Program-made: the position numbers and the translations under genes
Shown: positions 10,852 through 54,224 of the stretch, piece after piece
Layout of the letters: each line of letters begins with the position of its first letter
Position numbering within the stretch: the stretch's first letter is position 1
Notes under the pieces: generated by a model
What the model saw: the letters and a program-made list of their open reading frames with translations, nothing else
Database searches by the model: none
Told to the model about the DNA's origin: nothing
DNA from: Acanthochlamys bracteata
Lineage: Eukaryota > Streptophyta > Magnoliopsida > Pandanales > Velloziaceae
Length of the DNA stretch: 64,000 nt
Reading direction: 5' to 3'
NCBI GenBank assembly: GCA_019914995.1
Contig: CM034139.1
Span: forward strand, 6,488,461 to 6,552,460

Positions 10852-13800
10852 TTAACAGTCAATTGAATTGCAGCTCTGTGCAACGGTTGTGCTATCCGTG
10901 GGGCTCAAAAAGGGGTCTATTTTAACCCACAGAAGAGAAAACACTGATGCCAATAGCACTGACCAGAGCACAACAATCGTTGGAGTTCTGTTCTGTCTTC
11001 CCATGAGACCCTTCAGGAATGGGTAAAGATGCAATATCACCCACATTGCGAAGAACACTTTGCCAAACAATGGTCCCCAGGCCTCGTAGCCGCTATTCAA
11101 GGCATCCGAAAATCCAGCAACCACGCCGACTATATTTACAACTATTATAGTTGTAGGAGGAATTAACACCGTCGTCCACTTGAACAAGTAGAGATCGCCA
11201 AACTCCCCATCGTCTGCTGCTTTGGCTGTGACGGTGAAGTTGGTGTCGACACCTGCCAACATCTTTAAGAAACCTTGGAACACCGCAAATAGGTGAGCAG
11301 AGACACCACCGATGACCCAGAACTGTTCGTTTCTCCACCAGTCTTCGATACCTACTCCACTCCATCGTAGCTCGAGAACGCTCGTCAAGATGATGGAGAT
11401 GAAAAGACCTAAAAACCATACACTTGCAATGTTCGAGAGCTGCGTAACAACCATAACACATGTTAACAAGAAATGCAGACAGTGATATTGCAGATGGGAA
11501 CTCGAGGATGAATGAGGAATACCGTTGGAATGATGAACTTTCCGGTGAGAAGACATATAGCAGGAAGGGAACAGTAAGCAATAAGGGGCAGCGAGGTGAA
11601 AGGGTAAACAATAGTGTTTATGTACGCCAGGCGCTGCAGCCACTTTAGCCGTCCACCACCATAGCCATACCATAGAGGGCAGTGCCTGCTCAGAAAAATC
11701 TCAACTGAACCAAGAGCCCAACGGAGAACCTGATGCAACCTATCAGAGAGATTGATTGGTGCTGATCCCTTGAAAGCAGGCCTTAGTGGCATGCAATAAA
11801 TTGATCTCCACCCTCGGCAGTGCATCTTAAACCCTGACAAAATATCTTCCGTGACAGATCCATATATCCAGCCAATCTGATTCAGGAGAAGCGCAAGAAA
11901 TTCATATAATTGAAATTAGGACAAACAAGATAATAAGGAGCAAGAAACAAAATAAAAATAACTACCAGAATTCGGGACGAACTATAATGAGGCGTTCCAA
12001 CAGTTAGTTAAGGATACCTCAAGCAAGCCTAACGCTAACAAGTCTGGTATTCTAATAAAGTAAAGTCAAAGGAGGCAGTAAATTTTGCAGGCCTGGTAAG
12101 CTTCCAAGATAAAATTTGTTGACTCATATTAAGCTGTATTACTGCATAGGGCATCTGATTGTCTAGCTTAAAATGATGTCCCAAACTTTGGCGTGTTTTA
12201 ATTCTCTCTTGAACTCTTTTGTTTGCCAAAATTCTTTTCAGATTTACCTTTAAATATAACAGAATATAAAAAAATCACTTTTTACTTATTTTTAAAAATA
12301 ATTAAACACGAAAAATTCAATTCACTTTTCGAGAAACTCACATTTTAAGAACTTACGGCGAGCCTACATAACCAGTTATGATCAAAGCTTATGGAACAGT
12401 TTGGAACTTCTATAAGAACAAAGCAATATCATTACGGAGTGCCTTTCGTTTTTAACAATCACAAACCTAAGAAGGTACACTATAAGTCCTAAGTTTTTGA
12501 AGCCTATAATTGTGCCACTTGTCTTAGAGTCCCTGATTGACTATTATTTACTTGCACCAAATAGAAAATTCTATCTGTGAAAAATAGTATTAGAGTTGAA
12601 TAAGCAGGAAAGGTGAAATTTGAAAATGCATGCCAGAAGGGTTACCTCCTTTCCCCATTCAGTTTTTTCTTCATATCCGCAACTGATAACATGAATTGCT
12701 TCTTTGATTAAAGTTGATGGGTTTGTAGACTCTGGAACTCCTCCGTGTTCCATCAGTGTAGATTCAATAAATACAGAAGATAGTCCAAATGTTTTCTCAA
12801 AGCTCATTTTGGAGACCAGTAAGGATCTCTCATATGCATCATAATCTGTGTGGAGTAAGAAAATCCATATCAGAAATTTTCTAAGAACTTGAAAATTATT
12901 ATGCGAAAGAAATCGGGCTTACTATCAATTTCCCCTAGGTTAAATATAGCAGCATCGAGATCCTCCCGCTTTGCATCCCGATAAACTTCCGACTCATCTT
13001 TGGAAGCCTTCTTAGGACAGCAGCAATTGCAGCAGCAGCACCATGAGCAAAATGAGGATTTGGGAATAGCTGGTAAAGATGGAGGGCCATAACCATATAG
13101 TGCTTGTCTTCTGAAAACACAACCAGTACCCACATAAACAGGTCCTTGGATCCCATCAAGCCCTTTCATGTTAATCTGAGTAAAGCAACAACTGTTAAGT
13201 GTCTGAAAGGATACGTCTGAAGACTAATTGAAAACATAATAGCTTACATCAAAAAAGACTATGTTTCGGTTGGCGTATCGGTCATGGCGATCTATGCCAT
13301 CAAACCTCTGAGGGAACTGCACATAGCATACATCTCTACCAACTTGAGGATCCATCATGAAACACATTGCTTCACGGACTGCCTTGCTATTATTTACATA
13401 GTGATCACAGTCGAGGTTAAGAATATATGGTGCATTTGTGAGAATAGCTGAGACTCGGACCTGCAGATGTTAAATTGTCAGCTACAGAGCAAGTGTGAAA
13501 CACACAAGTACTTTGAAAGAACAGTTTTGAAGATTAGCATACCAGGGCATTCATAGCACCAGCCTTTTTATGATGCTGGTAACCGGGTCTTTTTTCTCTT
13601 GAGACATAAACTAGACGAGGAAGCACATCACCTTCTATATCACGAGCTCCAGTTTGTCCAAGAAAAACCTTTACAAAGTGTTAATTGAAACAATTTCAAC
13701 TTGCATTTTGAGAAGATGAAATAAAAAATGAGCAAGCAGGTTCGAAGGAGTCAAACAAAACTGTCCTATGAACTGTCAGTATGCCTTTAAAATGTAAGCT

Positions 13801-16379
13801 TTTCATACTTCTTCAGTCTCACTTCATGTGGTGATAGCATAGAAAGGATGACTATACCAACAAGCAATATTACACAACAACTCCTCCACAACTAGCTCCT
13901 TAACTTTACCCGAACTTATAGTGGTGATAGATAACTACTGCATCTATTATGATCAATGAAGAAAAGCAGTAAACCTGAATCATTCCAGGGTGATCACGAG
14001 GATTATTTCCTGGCCAAGGGGTCCCGTCTTGCATAACCCAACCCTCTTCTGGGGTTTTTTGAGCCTTTGCAACCAGTGCATTTATCCTGACCTTATATTC
14101 CTCATAATCTCTCTGCAATACAATGAAAGACAATACTTGACCTTTCAATTTGAATAACGAAGTATTAAGGTAGTAAGTGGCAATTCAAATGCATGATATG
14201 TTTGTTATTCACTTATTCAGCAAACGTTCAAGAGGTTAAACCTTCATTGCTCTGCGTTCCTTGACAAAAGAAGGTTGTATTTTATCTCTTAGATAGTCAA
14301 TTTTCTGTGAGAAATAGAACTCTGGTGCCCTTGGCTCAATTGAGTACTTCTTACAAAATGGCACCCACTTTCTGGCAAATTCCGCCGTTTCAGCAAGAGA
14401 CTCAAAGGTAAGCATCGCAGAACCATCGTCAGAGACATAGCAGGAGATTTTATCCACAGGATAATCAACAGAAAGAATTGAAAGCACTGTATTAGCAGTA
14501 ATTAATGGAGGCTCTTTGAGGGGATCCACAGTACTAACAAAGAAGTCAACTGCAGCTAGCCCGCAATCTTTACCCCCTCTCTCGTACCTGAAACTCATAA
14601 ATCGAAACAAAAATTATTTTCCTGGATGCAATCACTTCTATTCCCTACTGCTTCTTATTAGTCTATAGATTAGACGCACACAGCCAACACTTGGTTAGAT
14701 ATATCATACCTTGCACTTAGTCTGTCTATAAACGTCTCTCTATTGATTGGCGACCATTTTGGAAACTGGTCCAACACCCATGAGATTGCAAACCAAATCT
14801 CGCATATGACTGAAGTCAGCCATAGGCCGTATGCACTCTCAACAGGATTTGTTATCCTGTAGTGGAAGAAAAGTCCAAGAATAATCAACCTCATGATGAT
14901 CACAGCCCTGTAAGGACTAAGTTTATTCCGAGAAATTGGAATGACTGCTGAAAGTGGTTGATCATCTGCTGCGTATCTGCGCAAGGTAAGCAAAACACTG
15001 TCCTTTAAGCATATGATCTTTTCTATTTAGAATGCAGGCTTTAATAGAGCAACAATGGTTAACTTTTCCAACAAGTCCTTTAGGGCTTGTTTACTTCACT
15101 ATAAGTGACCCAAAAGTGACTTTCTATCTCCAAAATATCACTTTCGGGTGACTATGTTTACTTCATAATTTGTTCTTACAAACTGATCGCTTTCTAATAA
15201 CTCATTCCTACTTGTTTTTCAAAAATTTATTTTTTAGAAACTCACTTGCAAACTAGTGACACACGCCCTTAGCGCAAAAGATAAGAAGAATGCATGAACA
15301 TATATAACTTTATATAACTGAATCAATGAACTACAAAAATATGCTTACTGATTCTCTTCAATGTGCTGTTCCAAAGGAACCTGAGTTTCTTTACCACCTT
15401 TTTTGAAGTTCTTTTTGTTTTTCTTCTCCTTCCAGCTCTCCACTCTGTTCTTCCATATTGGATCACTAGATTCTATTATAAAAACAACATATATAGAAGT
15501 AAAGCATTAATCTCTACAGGTCATGATCCGAAGAATGAAATCTACAATCGAACAAGTTTGAAATATCTTACCGCTGTCAAGGGTTGAAACAGTACTCACG
15601 TTCCTGGCATGAATTCCCGTGTCCTGTGCAACAAGTGAAATTATATTTCCAAACAAAAAAACTACTATGTTAAAACAGATCTCTATTGTCATCATCTGGA
15701 AGGCAGAATTCTGTCAAATCAGGAATAAAACACACGAGAAAGGAACCTGATAACTATCTTCATTTGCTGCTACTGTTGACCTTACATCAGATTCATCATT
15801 CTTGCCATTTTCTTTGCCTGACAAATGAAAGATACCATCAGTGTTTCCAGAACGGGGTTTAATGATCAAATTATCATGTCACTCAGCAGAAAGTGGAACT
15901 GCTATACTATTCTCAGAAATTAAAGCTTCCGATGAAGTTTGAAATTGAATTTTTAGGCGATAAAAAATAATTGCTATATAGCTCAAACCAACAGATATGC
16001 AATTGTTTTGAGAAACAACTTAGCCAAATGTACTCTACTACCCAAGTTGATGAACGCATTCAGGCAATAAATTGGAACTTATTAGAGACTGCCATGATCA
16101 AGTAGGTAAGGGATCAATTGATATGCAATCTATGCAACAAGCCGTAAATTCCGAAACAGACATTCTTACGAACAACCTGAACTCCAATCAAAAGTAACCA
16201 AAAGACCAACCTAGTACTCTTGCAAACGGTGCCGCACACATTAGGCAACAATTTTTTCCCTCCTTCAACTCATCGTTGACGCAAGACCGACACATCGGGT
16301 ACTGACACTCTTCGCAGGCAACGAACACGTCGCCGCTTTGGCCGCAAGAGTGACAAACAAGTGCTCCTGGTTCCATCAT
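10852..16379 (-). CDS. CESA8: Cellulose synthase catalytic subunit, CESA8 (IRX1) orthologue, 13 exons
   Basis: This subunit of the plasma-membrane cellulose synthase complex makes beta-1,4-glucan from UDP-glucose in secondary walls. Exons (minus strand): 16379-16211, 15817-15747, 15623-15572, 15472-15349, 14976-14710, 14587-14242, 14112-13975, 13668-13543, 13460-13248, 13175-12923, 12845-12646, 11876-11523, 11439-10852. All junctions are GT-AG and in phase, giving 966 residues. It has an N-terminal RING-type zinc finger, TM pairs, and catalytic DDG (280-282), DCD (448-450), TED (662-664) and QVLRW (702-706). The CESA8 assignment rests on [17 protein letters not shown], the MMEPG start and the C-terminal ..SIDC. 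The zinc-finger loop is about six residues shorter than usual. An ATG at 16394 is an alternative start; a 5'-UTR intron ending at about 16399 is possible. Introns hold MITEs at 15083 and about 12187. Confidence 0.95.
12187..12357. mobile_element. MITE-like element in a CESA8 intron
   Basis: The left side reads TTTGGCGTGTTTTAATTC and the right side ends ..AACTTACGGCGAGCC. The interior has the 'aactcacattttaag' sequence seen in the elements at 2324 and 31861. It lies in the intron between CESA8 exons 11 and 12. Boundaries are approximate. Confidence 0.4.
15083..15268. mobile_element. Tourist/Harbinger-like MITE with TTA target duplication (CESA8 intron 4)
   Basis: This 186-bp AT-rich element starts GGGCTTGTTTAC and ends GTGACACACGCCC (complement GGGCGTGTGTC). 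It is flanked on both sides by TTA (15080-15082 and 15269-15271). TTA duplications with GGGC-like ends are typical of PIF/Harbinger-derived MITEs. It has no ORF. Confidence 0.65.
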
Positions 16380-18097: not shown

Positions 18098-18171
18098 GGC
18101 CTATTAGCTCAGTTGGTTAGAGCGTCGTGCTAATAACGCGAAGGTCGCAGGTTCGAGACCTGCATGGGCCA
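18098..18171 (+). tRNA. tRNA-Ile (anticodon AAU)
   Basis: The acceptor stem GGCCTAT pairs with ATGGGCC (one G-U). The A box TAGCTCAGTTGG and B box GGTTCGAGACC are intact, and the anticodon loop is CTAATAA with AAT at the anticodon. There is no intron, the discriminator base is A, and CCA is not encoded, as in nuclear genes. A CAA motif lies just upstream and a T-run follows near 18210 for RNA polymerase III. Confidence 0.95.
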
Positions 18172-19620: not shown

Positions 19621-19640
19621 GCATATCCATAGGCATATCC
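19621..19640 (+). promoter_or_regulatory. Two P1BS (PHR1-binding) sites upstream of MIR399
   Basis: GCATATCC occurs at 19621-19628 and again at 19633-19640; both fit the PHR1 consensus GNATATNC exactly. A third match, GCATATGC, is at 19718-19725. The pair lies about 30-50 bp upstream of a TATA-like CTATAAAG at 19666-19673, a sensible promoter position. This layout matches the known phosphate-starvation control of MIR399 genes. Confidence 0.7.
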
Positions 19641-19665
19641 ATGAATGCTAGTACCATTTCTTACA

Positions 19666-19673
19666 CTATAAAG
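19666..19673 (+). promoter_or_regulatory. TATA-like box of the MIR399 gene
   Basis: CTATAAAG lies between the P1BS pair and the hairpin. Transcription would start near 19700, about 50 bp before the hairpin base. Confidence 0.45.
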
Positions 19674-19749
19674 ATTGAACTCAAAACCGGCAAGTGTCTG
19701 CACAACGAAAACTGCGTGCATATGCATGAAGAGAGACAGATTATATAGA

Positions 19750-19875
19750 TGTTGGCAATGAATCACAGGGCGGTTCCTCCTTTGGCAGGAACTCAAATCC
19801 AGCCAGCAAGAGAACTGCTAGTGAATGTATCTTCCTGCCAAAGGAGAATTGCCCTGTCATTCATTCAACACTACT
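19750..19875 (+). ncRNA. MIR399: MIR399 precursor
   Basis: The 3' arm holds a 21-nt mature sequence at 19836-19856, starting TGCCAAAGGAGAATTGCC. As remembered, it is identical to a known miR399 isoform. The 5' arm, 19768-19789 (GGGCGGTTCCTCCTTTGGCA..), pairs with it almost completely: two G-U pairs and one bulged C. Pairing continues outward (aatgaat.acagggc against its complement), giving a hairpin of about 125 nt with a loop of about 45 nt. The mature strand is on the 3' arm, as is usual for the family. miR399 moves in phloem and silences PHO2 (an E2 ubiquitin conjugase), raising phosphate uptake. P1BS sites lie upstream. Confidence 0.92.
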
Positions 19876-20294
19876 GATCATCATTGTCGGAAAAGTACTT
19901 GACGTAGTTTCGTCGGAAGGTAACCACTTTACTGTCTCATGCAGAATTAGCAGGGAGTTAATTCTACAGATGCTAATTGATTGTATTCGTTTCTTATTAG
20001 CAGTTGGTCAAAGAGATTATGTATGTGCTAGCAGTTTACATAAGATAGACGAAGCAAGTACTTCAAGTAGCCAATGCAGATCAGGGGTAATCTAACTTAC
20101 GAATTCCTTTATTTATATATATCTTGGTTGAAGTCTGTTAAATTCAAGTCATACATAAAGAAAACAAAATATCTTTAGAATAACTTCAAAATATGTGAAA
20201 AGAACACGTTAACTAGTTAATGTGAATGCTGAAGACTCTATTAACTGGCAATGGTGTTTCGTATCATGCACGGGGGGCCACTTAAGGACACTTC

Positions 20295-23135: not shown

Positions 23136-24321
23136 ATGGAAGCTGGAACCAGTAGTACTGTTCAAGAAACAAGCCAAGAAGTTAAACTGGAGATAGAAGG
23201 AAGCGGCGGCGGTGGTGGTAGTTCGGCGGAATCAATGAATGTTTGTGTTTCATCTTTTTCTGCAGAAGCAAAAGCAGCGCGGCTTTCTCCTCCATCTCCT
23301 TCTACCTCTTCTCCAAAGAGAAGGTAAAGCAAACACAAAGATCAACTGATAGCAGAGTTGTTGTTAGCTAGCTTGGGTTTTGATTTGTTGACGATTTGTT
23401 GCAGCCGGAGATCGGTGCAGAAGCGAGTTGTGCAGATGCCTATAGCAGAGGCAGAGGCGATGAGACCTAAAGGCGCTGCCGAAGGAGCTCCGCCTTCTGA
23501 TTCTTGGGCTTGGCGCAAGTACGGACAGAAACCTATTAAAGGTTCTCCTTATCCAAGGTCTCTGTCTTCTGCTCTTCATAAAAGCTTTCAACTTTTTTGA
23601 TGAACAGAGTAGTTCTTCACATTCATGAACACAGTTTTCACCTTTCCGTCACTGATGAGGAAAGAATTTAATTTTCAATCATGGGCAAAGAAAGATTTTG
23701 CAGATTTTTGAATTGGTCTGTGTTGGTGGTGATCTTGGCAGGGGGTATTACAGATGCAGTAGCTCAAAGGGTTGTCCTGCGAGGAAACAAGTAGAGAGAA
23801 GCCGCACAGATCCAACCATGCTTGTGATTACTTACTCTTGCGAGCACAATCACCAGTGGCCACCCCCCAAAAACCATCACAGAAATCAAACTGCCAAACC
23901 AACACGTACAACAACAGCAGCAATAACAACAGCAACGGAAGACGAAGAAGAACTGACAGAGATCCCCGGACAACAACAAGAACAGAGCCCATTATCTTCC
24001 GACCAAGAAGAGAAGTTCTCCGATCTCATCGCCGCCGACGAGCCATCTCTGATGATGACTGATGAGTTCAACTGGTTCTCTAAAGACATAAGTTGTTCTT
24101 CAGACTCGGGTTCTCCGCCGGCAGAGATTCCACCACTGCTCTACGAACCCATCTACAACACCAGCAGCTGCTCTGCTTTTGCAGATGAAGGAGATCACAG
24201 AATCAAAGACAACGAAGAAGAAGATTCATTGTTCGCCGGACTTGGAGAGTTACCAGAATTCTCAATGGTTTTCCGGCGAAGTATACCGGCGGAAACGACG
24301 GCAGCTGCGTCCACGGGATGA
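23136..24321 (+). CDS. WRKY transcription factor, group IIe (WRKY65/69-like), 3 exons
   Basis: This is a nuclear DNA-binding regulator of the W-box type. Exons 23136-23323, 23405-23557 and 23742-24321 join in phase to give 306 residues. The single WRKY domain has WRKYGQK at 99-105 and a C-X5-C-X23-H-X-H zinc finger (C119, C125, H149, H151). The second intron sits after PYPR, the conserved position for groups I, IIc, IId, IIe and III. The motif [10 protein letters not shown] before the domain and [21 protein letters not shown] within it are typical of group IIe. The N-terminus is Gly/Ser-rich; the C-terminus is acidic and ends with [18 protein letters not shown], which resembles WRKY65. Exact orthology was not tested. 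Confidence 0.92.
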
Positions 24322-26138: not shown

Positions 26139-29799
<3,661 letters not shown>

Positions 29800-51245: not shown

Positions 51246-54224
51246 ATGAATATCTTTCGTTTCGCCGGCGACATGACTCATCTCGCAAGCGTTCTCATTC
51301 TTCTTCTCAAGATCTACGCAACCAAATCTTGCTCCGGTATCAGTCGATCCGTTTTCTTCCGTTGATTTTTAGTCAGTAGATTGAATTTGATGTTGATTGT
51401 TGACGGTTTGTTTGATTGATGAATGAATGAACAGGGATATCGTTGAAGACGCAGGAGTTGTACGCGCTGGTGTTTCTGACAAGGTACATAGATTTGGTTA
51501 CGGATTTCATCTCGGTCTACAACAGTGTGATGAAAATCGTGTTCATAACGAGCTCGATCGCGATCGTTTGGTTCATGCGGTTACACCCTGCCGTCTGCCG
51601 AACGTACGACCGACACATGGACAGCTTCCGGCATTACATACTCATCGCCGCAGCCGCAGCTCTTGCGCTCCTTTTCCACGATCAGTTCACCTTCAGAGAC
51701 GTAAGTTTGCTTCCTTGTCCCTGTCTAGTGTTACCGACTGAGTTTGGGGGTGTTTGGCTTTGCTTTCCTCCAACCCAACTTTTCAATTCTCCATTTCACA
51801 TTTTTTAATATATTTTTTATAAATATATAAAAAATTTATTTAAAAAATTAGAAAGTGTAGAAAAATTCTACGGAGTGAGATCTTTTTATTACATATTTTT
51901 ATTATTTTTTTAGAAGTAAAAAAAATAAAGCTCGTTTTTCAAAAAAGACAAAAATATCCTTCATTTCATAAGCAATCCCAAACGTCCCCTTTGCTATGTT
52001 GTTGTCTGAAATGGGAGTTACCGAATTTGGTATGCTAGTGTTTCCATGGAGTGTTAAGGTGTGGGATATATAGGTTTGAAGTAGATTTAATAAGTGTTAG
52101 AAATTTTTTATGTTATTGATTGTTTTGCATGGTAGTTAGTTTGCTTTGCTCGTGATTGATTAAGAGTTATAAAGTGAGCAGGGAGTGATGCATTGGCAGG
52201 CATTTCAAATTGCGTTCTTTGAGATTTTGGTAGGATAAATGCATGAAGGTTTCACCACTAAATGTTTGGTTGAGTTCCTGACCATATTACTACAATGTTG
52301 ATTACGATTGACACCTTTATTTTCTGGTGGAAAGCATGTGGATGTTGTGTTGGTCACACCTCTTTGTGGTGGAGAGCATGAAGCTGTTGCTTTGGGGAAG
52401 ATTTTCCCAAAGAGTTCAGATTTTAGCTTATTGATCATATTGTGAGATATTAGAATTGGAATGTACCAACTTCAACAAGTTAAACCTAGTGCAGACCAGT
52501 TGTGTTAAGAGTCTCTTTAATTGAAAATCCGAAGACCCTATCTTCTGCAGCTAAATGACTCGGATTATGTTGGTTTTCGCCAGTGTTGTGTATGTTGTTT
52601 GATAAAGTTATGACAAGGCTTCATGCTTATTAATCTATGATGAGTGTTACCTCTTATCATACTTCAATGATTGGAAGCTGCTTTCAAATGATTTTTTTTC
52701 TTTTTCTGAAAGGAAGGTGGTACATATCGAAGAAAGCTTCATTCAGTTTGACAAATTTCATAATGTTTATTGCATTGTTTTTATCGTAGCACCTTTCCAA
52801 ATGATGCTCACTGCAGGTGCTGTGGGCATTCTCTATATATCTGGAGGCAGTAGCAATTCTTCCGCAACTAGTTTTGCTACAAAGAAGTGGAAATGTGGAC
52901 AATTTGACTGGGCAATATGTGTTCTTTCTTGGGTATGTTTCCTAGCCTTTCCTGTTTTCTGTCTTCTGTAAATACGAGTCCAAGCATATGATGTCTATCT
53001 GGTAAGCATCAACTAGCTTGAATATTTATAGGAGGTTTTGTTATTTTCTAGACATGCTCCCTGGACTATGACTGTGTCTAGCTGGGTAGTACTACATATG
53101 TAGGCACTATAGTTTTTGATGTATCATAGTGTATGTCAAACATAGGAAAATGTTCATCAAAATGCTATGACATGTTTTCAAGATCAGAATTTTGGAAGAG
53201 GTTCCTTATATGGCAAAGAACTCATGAGGGATATATTTTATTGAGAATCAGGTTTAAGGGAGCTGTGCTTCTTAAAGTAAAAGCTTACAGCTGCAATCAG
53301 ATATCATATGAGGTGCTTAGAGCAACATGCCTTTAATTGTAGAATCATTTAAGCAATTTCATGTTGACTGCGGGCTTAGTTTCTATAGTCTTTATTTAAG
53401 TTAGGATAGGGTAAAGGTAGCAAAAGATGCTCACACGAGTGTGTCACTAGTGGGTTGAAAGGGAGGTCTAGTGAATAAAATATTGAGACCCTACAACGAT
53501 CGACCTTTTCTTCGTGCCATGTATCTCTGCTAACTGCTTCATGCGCGTATCTTCCTTTCTTACTTCTCATTGACTGATGATAGAACTTAACATCGCCAGT
53601 GGAAGTGTGGAAGTTACTGTGTTAATTGCACTGAGTTTATAATGATATTGTGATTAGAGCTCACTTGTCCTGTATACCTGGCTGAGTTGAAATCTCACTG
53701 CAGTCAAAACTTAATCTTCATGACGTAGTATTTAGGATCATTGATCTGTCATTGTCCTTATGAAAATAAATTAGGAGAAATAATCACATAATGAGCTCTC
53801 TTTGCACCAATTGGTCATGTAGCCCTTCATTGACAATCTTGCAGATGATGCACGGGGTCCATTGAATTTTGCTGATACTAAAAAATTTTGTCATTGTAGG
53901 GCTTACCGTGCATTCTACATTCTAAACTGGATATACCGCTATTTCACTGAGCAGCACTATAGTCGGTGGATACGTAAGTTTCAATTAAATATTTGGTAGG
54001 ATGTTTCTTCTTTTTTCCAGAATGTACTTAATTCTGTTCATTTCAGCATGGCTAGCTGGTCTCGTCCAAACTGCTCTCTATGCTGACTTCTTCTACTACT
54101 ACTTCATAAGGTAAGATGAATTTATGTAACAGCATATAATGTAAATGAAGAAAATTAAGAACTAACGATGCTTCTGGTTATCATCAGCTGGAAGAACAAT
54201 TCCAAGCTTCAGTTGCCAGCCTAA
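51246..54224 (+). CDS. ERD2: ERD2-type ER lumen protein retaining (KDEL/HDEL) receptor, 6 exons
   Basis: This seven-TM Golgi/ER receptor returns H/KDEL-tagged proteins to the ER. Exons 51246-51336, 51435-51700, 52817-52932, 53900-53973, 54047-54110 and 54188-54224 join in phase to give 215 residues, as remembered for Arabidopsis ERD2. It starts [20 protein letters not shown] and holds [63 protein letters not shown] and [20 protein letters not shown], ending in LPA. All junctions are GT-AG. Intron 2 carries a MITE at about 51747-51989. Whether it is ERD2a or ERD2b cannot be told. Confidence 0.95.
51747..51989. mobile_element. MITE-like element in ERD2 intron 2
   Basis: The left end GGGGTGTTTGGCTTTGC and the complement of the right end GGGGACGTTTGGGATTGC are inverted repeats. 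TTTG flanks both sides (51743-51746 and 51990-51993). The 243-bp interior is AT-rich and palindromic. Confidence 0.6.

Follow-up and report, generated by a model that had tools for sequence, protein, structure and literature searches.

The stretch of Acanthochlamys bracteata DNA analyzed here (hereafter the window; 64,000 nucleotides, C14:6488461-6552460) belongs to a nuclear genome that totals 195.5 Mb over 557 contigs, of which 20 (C1 to C20) are chromosome sized and C21 is 40 kb. It carries a hairpin of the MIR399 family with predicted mature and star sequences on opposite arms, preceded by a TATA-like box and a closely spaced pair of P1BS sites (Table 1). We note that open frames matching the cellulose synthase (two frames), WRKY, and Ras families lie on both sides of the MIR399 gene, and that a tRNA-Ile (anticodon AAT) is located at 18098-18171, ∼1.6 kb upstream of the hairpin.

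Table 1. Features of the MIR399 locus and its surroundings (window positions), with the PHO2-type loci elsewhere in the genome (contig positions)
Feature	Position	Strand	Remarks
P1BS doublet, GCATATCC twice	19621-19628 and 19633-19640	+	Starts 12 bp apart; spacer of 4 bp
TATA-like box, TATAAA	19667-19672	+	26 bp below the doublet
Third P1BS-type site, GCATATGC	19718-19725	+	Probably in the transcribed leader; role doubtful
MIR399 precursor hairpin	19756-19866	+	RF00445, 83.3 bits; z, -8.11 for 19740-19880
Predicted miR399 star	19768-19789	+	On the 5' arm, with a single-base bulge at 19777; from the pairing table of the fold
Predicted mature miR399, TGCCAAAGGAGAATTGCCCTG	19836-19856	+	3' arm; identical to published miR399
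Flanking family-matching frame	10852-11673	-	
Flanking family-matching frame	14236-14610	-	
Flanking family-matching frame	23698-24321	+	
Flanking family-matching frame	26139-26519	-	
PHO2-type locus	C13:3009500-3019400		Five predicted miR399 sites upstream of large open frames
PHO2-type locus	C14:4556200-4566100		Six predicted miR399 sites upstream of large open frames

The MIR399 hairpin and its predicted products

The plus strand of the hairpin scores above the curated cut-off of 57 for the Rfam MIR399 family (RF00445), with an E value of 2.1e-18. This match, together with a collinear copy in a duplicated block on C13 and a layout common to the paralogues (both described below), argues against an inverted repeat that arose by chance or from a transposon and happens to resemble MIR399, an origin that we regard as extremely improbable. 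The segment from 19740 to 19880 folds at -62.3 kcal/mol, compared with a shuffle mean of -32.2 (standard deviation, 3.71), and none of 200 shuffles folds as well as the native sequence. In the fold of the precursor itself (19756-19866), every one of the 21 predicted mature positions is base-paired, with a single bulged base on the star arm.

An earlier note on this DNA had proposed a near-perfect MIR399 hairpin on this strand with a miR399-type 21-mer on its 3' arm, and the family, strand, and mature arm are all upheld by the Rfam match, the fold, and the identity of the 21-mer to published sequences. Specifically, TGCCAAAGGAGAATTGCCCTG is exactly identical to MIR399A and MIR399H of grapevine (PMC2831844) and to csi-miR399c/e of citrus (PMC8121382), and the 21-mer occurs in 18 papers of the open-licence literature. 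The star that the note had placed at 19768-19789 is recovered at the same coordinates when a 2-nt 3' overhang is applied, a prediction from fold geometry.

The minus strand of 19756-19866 also exceeds the RF00445 cut-off, at 60.1 bits. We considered that this strand might yield a second miRNA and set the idea aside, as seven of the eight other MIR399 loci likewise match on both strands, as near-palindromes may, and the 2 kb preceding the hairpin on the minus strand contain no P1BS site.

A P1BS doublet in the promoter

The P1BS consensus GNATATNC is matched three times at the window promoter, with two sites upstream of the TATA box, starting at 19621 and 19633, and one downstream of it, starting at 19718. 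The doublet with its 12-bp spacing and the TATA-like box had been recognized in the earlier note and are found where it had put them. The third site had been listed along with these, and it is present at 19718 as described, but its part in the promoter is questionable. Transcription starts ∼30 bp below a TATA box, and the site, at 45 bp below the box, is thus probably inside the transcript, some 20 nt in; it is also without counterpart in the paralogues, as no P1BS is seen between the TATA-like box and the hairpin in the other eight Rfam-detected MIR399 copies. The presumed leader also includes two very short ATG frames at 19722-19761 (8 and 11 codons, noted by eye), which may encode micropeptides.

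The window overall shows no excess of P1BS sites (nine observed versus a mean of 12.7 in 100 dinucleotide shuffles), and three of the nine fall within 105 bp at the MIR399 gene. Pairs with starts no more than 12 bp apart are seen once, against 0.01 per shuffled window, and trios with starts within 100 bp are also seen once, against none in the 100 shuffles.

Genome-wide counts, all of which are lower bounds, give at least three occurrences of the arrangement GCATATCC-N4-GCATATCC in 195.5 Mb and none in the reversed control. All three are upstream of a MIR399 hairpin, at the window locus on C14 and at the loci designated C12_1 and C7_1. Leaving the gap free between 0 and 30 bp gives 12 pairs of GCATATCC, compared with two in the reversed control; the nine pairs other than the N4 doublets include none with a 4-bp gap and are spread over the 30 other spacings, at ∼0.3 per spacing. 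A stricter pattern that includes the window's own spacer and allows one mismatch finds the window copy only. We note that the three doublets may share a single ancestor and need not be independent.

A more general 12-bp P1BS grammar was also evaluated and rejected, with the full consensus at a spacing of 4 giving 27 places versus 28 in the reversed control; at a spacing of 5, there are 24 places versus 11. As the full-consensus P1BS has no preference for a 4-bp spacer, the doublet marks one subgroup of MIR399 genes and reflects no general rule. In all three doublet loci, the distance from the end of the doublet to the TATA-like box is 25 to 26 bp. In eight of the nine Rfam-detected loci, including the five non-doublet loci with a P1BS promoter (nearest site), 17 to 38 bp separate the end of a P1BS from the TATA-like box (TATAAA, TATATA, or TTTAAA) below it, with the gaps being measured by hand, noticed post hoc, and based on a loose TATA definition without a chance control.

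The window gene shares with the RF00445 family its hairpin, 3'-arm mature sequence, known 21-mer, and upstream P1BS, but it differs in having two exact GCATATCC sites 12 bp apart. MIR399 promoters of Arabidopsis and N. benthamiana are listed with one to three P1BS sites each (PMC6296076). A tandem P1BS binds an AtPHR1 fragment in vitro ∼50-fold tighter than a single site does, with a ∼30-fold slower release being the main source of the tighter binding (PMC5651819). The single-site probe in that work, from AtSPX3, contains GCATATCC, and the AtSPX1 promoter used for the tandem probe resembles the window promoter in having two P1BS sites close together, although these have other letters and, by our reading of the probe, are 24 bp apart start to start rather than 12 bp. 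Four tandem P1BS sites on a minimal promoter give a phosphate-starvation response in 9 of 10 Arabidopsis lines (PMC2936532), and in a rice structure a single P1BS is occupied by two MYB domains of PHR2 (PMC8948245). By analogy with the in vitro binding to tandem sites (PMC5651819), it is plausible that the window doublet acts as a strong switch.

A more specific proposal is that GCATATCC-N4-GCATATCC, at 25 to 26 bp above the TATA box, could serve as a promoter module devoted to MIR399 genes of the A13 type (those with A at position 13 of the 21-mer). It would load a pair of PHR dimers separated by roughly one turn of the helix, and would confer a sharper onset and a slower shut-off than at single-site phosphate-starvation genes; we consider this unlikely. 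We found no account of tandem P1BS spacing at miR399 in the open-licence literature, and the doublet may nonetheless have been published.

MIR399 copies and a duplicated block

A search of the genome with the Rfam MIR399 model returns 17 strand-wise matches at nine places, four above the cut-off. Besides the window locus on C14, C12 has three of these places and C7 has two, whereas C13, C1, and C5 have a single one apiece. The miR399 target-site search brought up a tenth place, C2:4251866, a MIR399 relic that aligns with the C1 copy; it has kept the 21-mer but shows changes in the 5' arm and has lost two of the three P1BS sites.

The paralogues show the same P1BS-TATA-hairpin layout as the window gene, and the window, C12_1, and C7_1 have an identical 21-mer with A at position 13. 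The strand of C7_1 is read differently by different features, with Rfam favoring plus (57.8 versus 52.5 bits), whereas the doublet, the TATA box, and the exact 21-mer favor minus. We also note a head-to-head MIR399 pair on C12 and another on C7 in similar segments (regions C12:2023449-2028431 and C7:2170660-2172351), each pair with P1BS sites between its two hairpins; the third C12 copy is 2.9 kb beyond the C12 pair.

The window positions from 24 to 53900 and C13:1103000-1182999 share blocks that are collinear in reverse order, the best at 84 to 87% identity and others down to ∼65%, with the comparison reaching window position 53900, where the C13 stretch used ends. Together these look like a duplicated block, in which the C13 partner of the window gene is 69% identical over 279 bp. 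The partner differs at both doublet sites, at the TATA box, and at the third P1BS site. Its 5' arm is longer by four bases, and its 21-mer differs at a single base, with A13 being kept. Its hairpin folds at -29.1 kcal/mol, versus -56.4 for the window hairpin, and there is no P1BS in the 2 kb upstream, the sole exception among the nine Rfam-detected loci. With a damaged hairpin, P1BS absent, and the TATA box changed, the C13 copy looks like a dying duplicate, and we infer that the changes arose on the C13 side and that this copy is non-functional. The window copy looks like the intact member of the pair, and its partner decayed.

The presence of the identical 21-mer and the same doublet in C12_1 and C7_1, and the apparent decay of the C13 partner, would also fit a window locus with an intact sequence but little or no expression, owing to redundancy with the copies on C12 and C7. 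We view this as improbable, as the doublet, the TATA box, and both arms are intact in the window whereas the C13 partner is changed in each, a contrast for which selection on the window copy is the presumed cause.

The family and its phosphate biology are both known, the promoter doublet is mildly unusual, and the apparently decayed duplicate is informative. A single duplicated block in which one copy looks intact and the other decayed provides a natural test of P1BS number and spacing against MIR399 retention; we found no account of MIR399 promoter P1BS after whole genome duplication in the open-licence literature.

Candidate targets, mimics, and the phosphate route

The two PHO2-type loci (Table 1) have 11 predicted miR399 sites, counted at a penalty of ≤4.5 for at least one miR399 variant under our own penalty scheme. 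The domain scan covered the C13 locus, where open frames match SH3 domains of the UBE2O type and a ubiquitin-conjugating domain (UQ_con), the combination that PHO2 should have; open frames at the C14 locus are similar. At 10 of the 11 sites, the window variant has a penalty of ≤4.5 (2.0 at best), and at nine of the 11 its A13 is opposite A, a mismatch. The T13 variant of the C12 locus C12_3 has penalties of 0 to 1.0 on seven of the 11 sites. We note that the last site of each PHO2-type locus is fitted better by the A13 variant than by the T13 variant of C12_3.

The miR399-PHO2 phosphate route is an established pathway, and it presumably also operates in A. bracteata. Regulators of the MYB-CC class, to which PHR1 belongs, are represented by 36 matches to MYB-CC domain exons in the genome, which is a class-level assignment and not one to PHR1 itself. 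With a probability of roughly 0.93, we interpret the window locus as an intact MIR399 gene that is driven by PHR under phosphate starvation and yields a miR399 that silences PHO2. Its sequence features suggest that it is probably switched on by phosphate shortage, and its likely function is deduced from the same features. Under phosphate starvation, PHR1-type MYB-CC factors would occupy the two sites of the P1BS doublet cooperatively, and transcription would then be driven from the downstream TATA box. The primary transcript would then be diced to a 21-nt miR399, as the hairpin geometry suggests, and this miR399 would silence PHO2 through its several upstream sites, giving more phosphate uptake and transport.

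A MIR399 family of ten places is found in one genome beside candidate targets and mimics. The IPS1/At4 mimic pattern has three matches in the genome, one of which is at C3:1407983. The other two are mimic candidates at one mismatch from the pattern, C1:14026847 with two P1BS sites within 0.9 kb upstream and C3:10043530 with P1BS sites 0.3 and 1.1 kb upstream.
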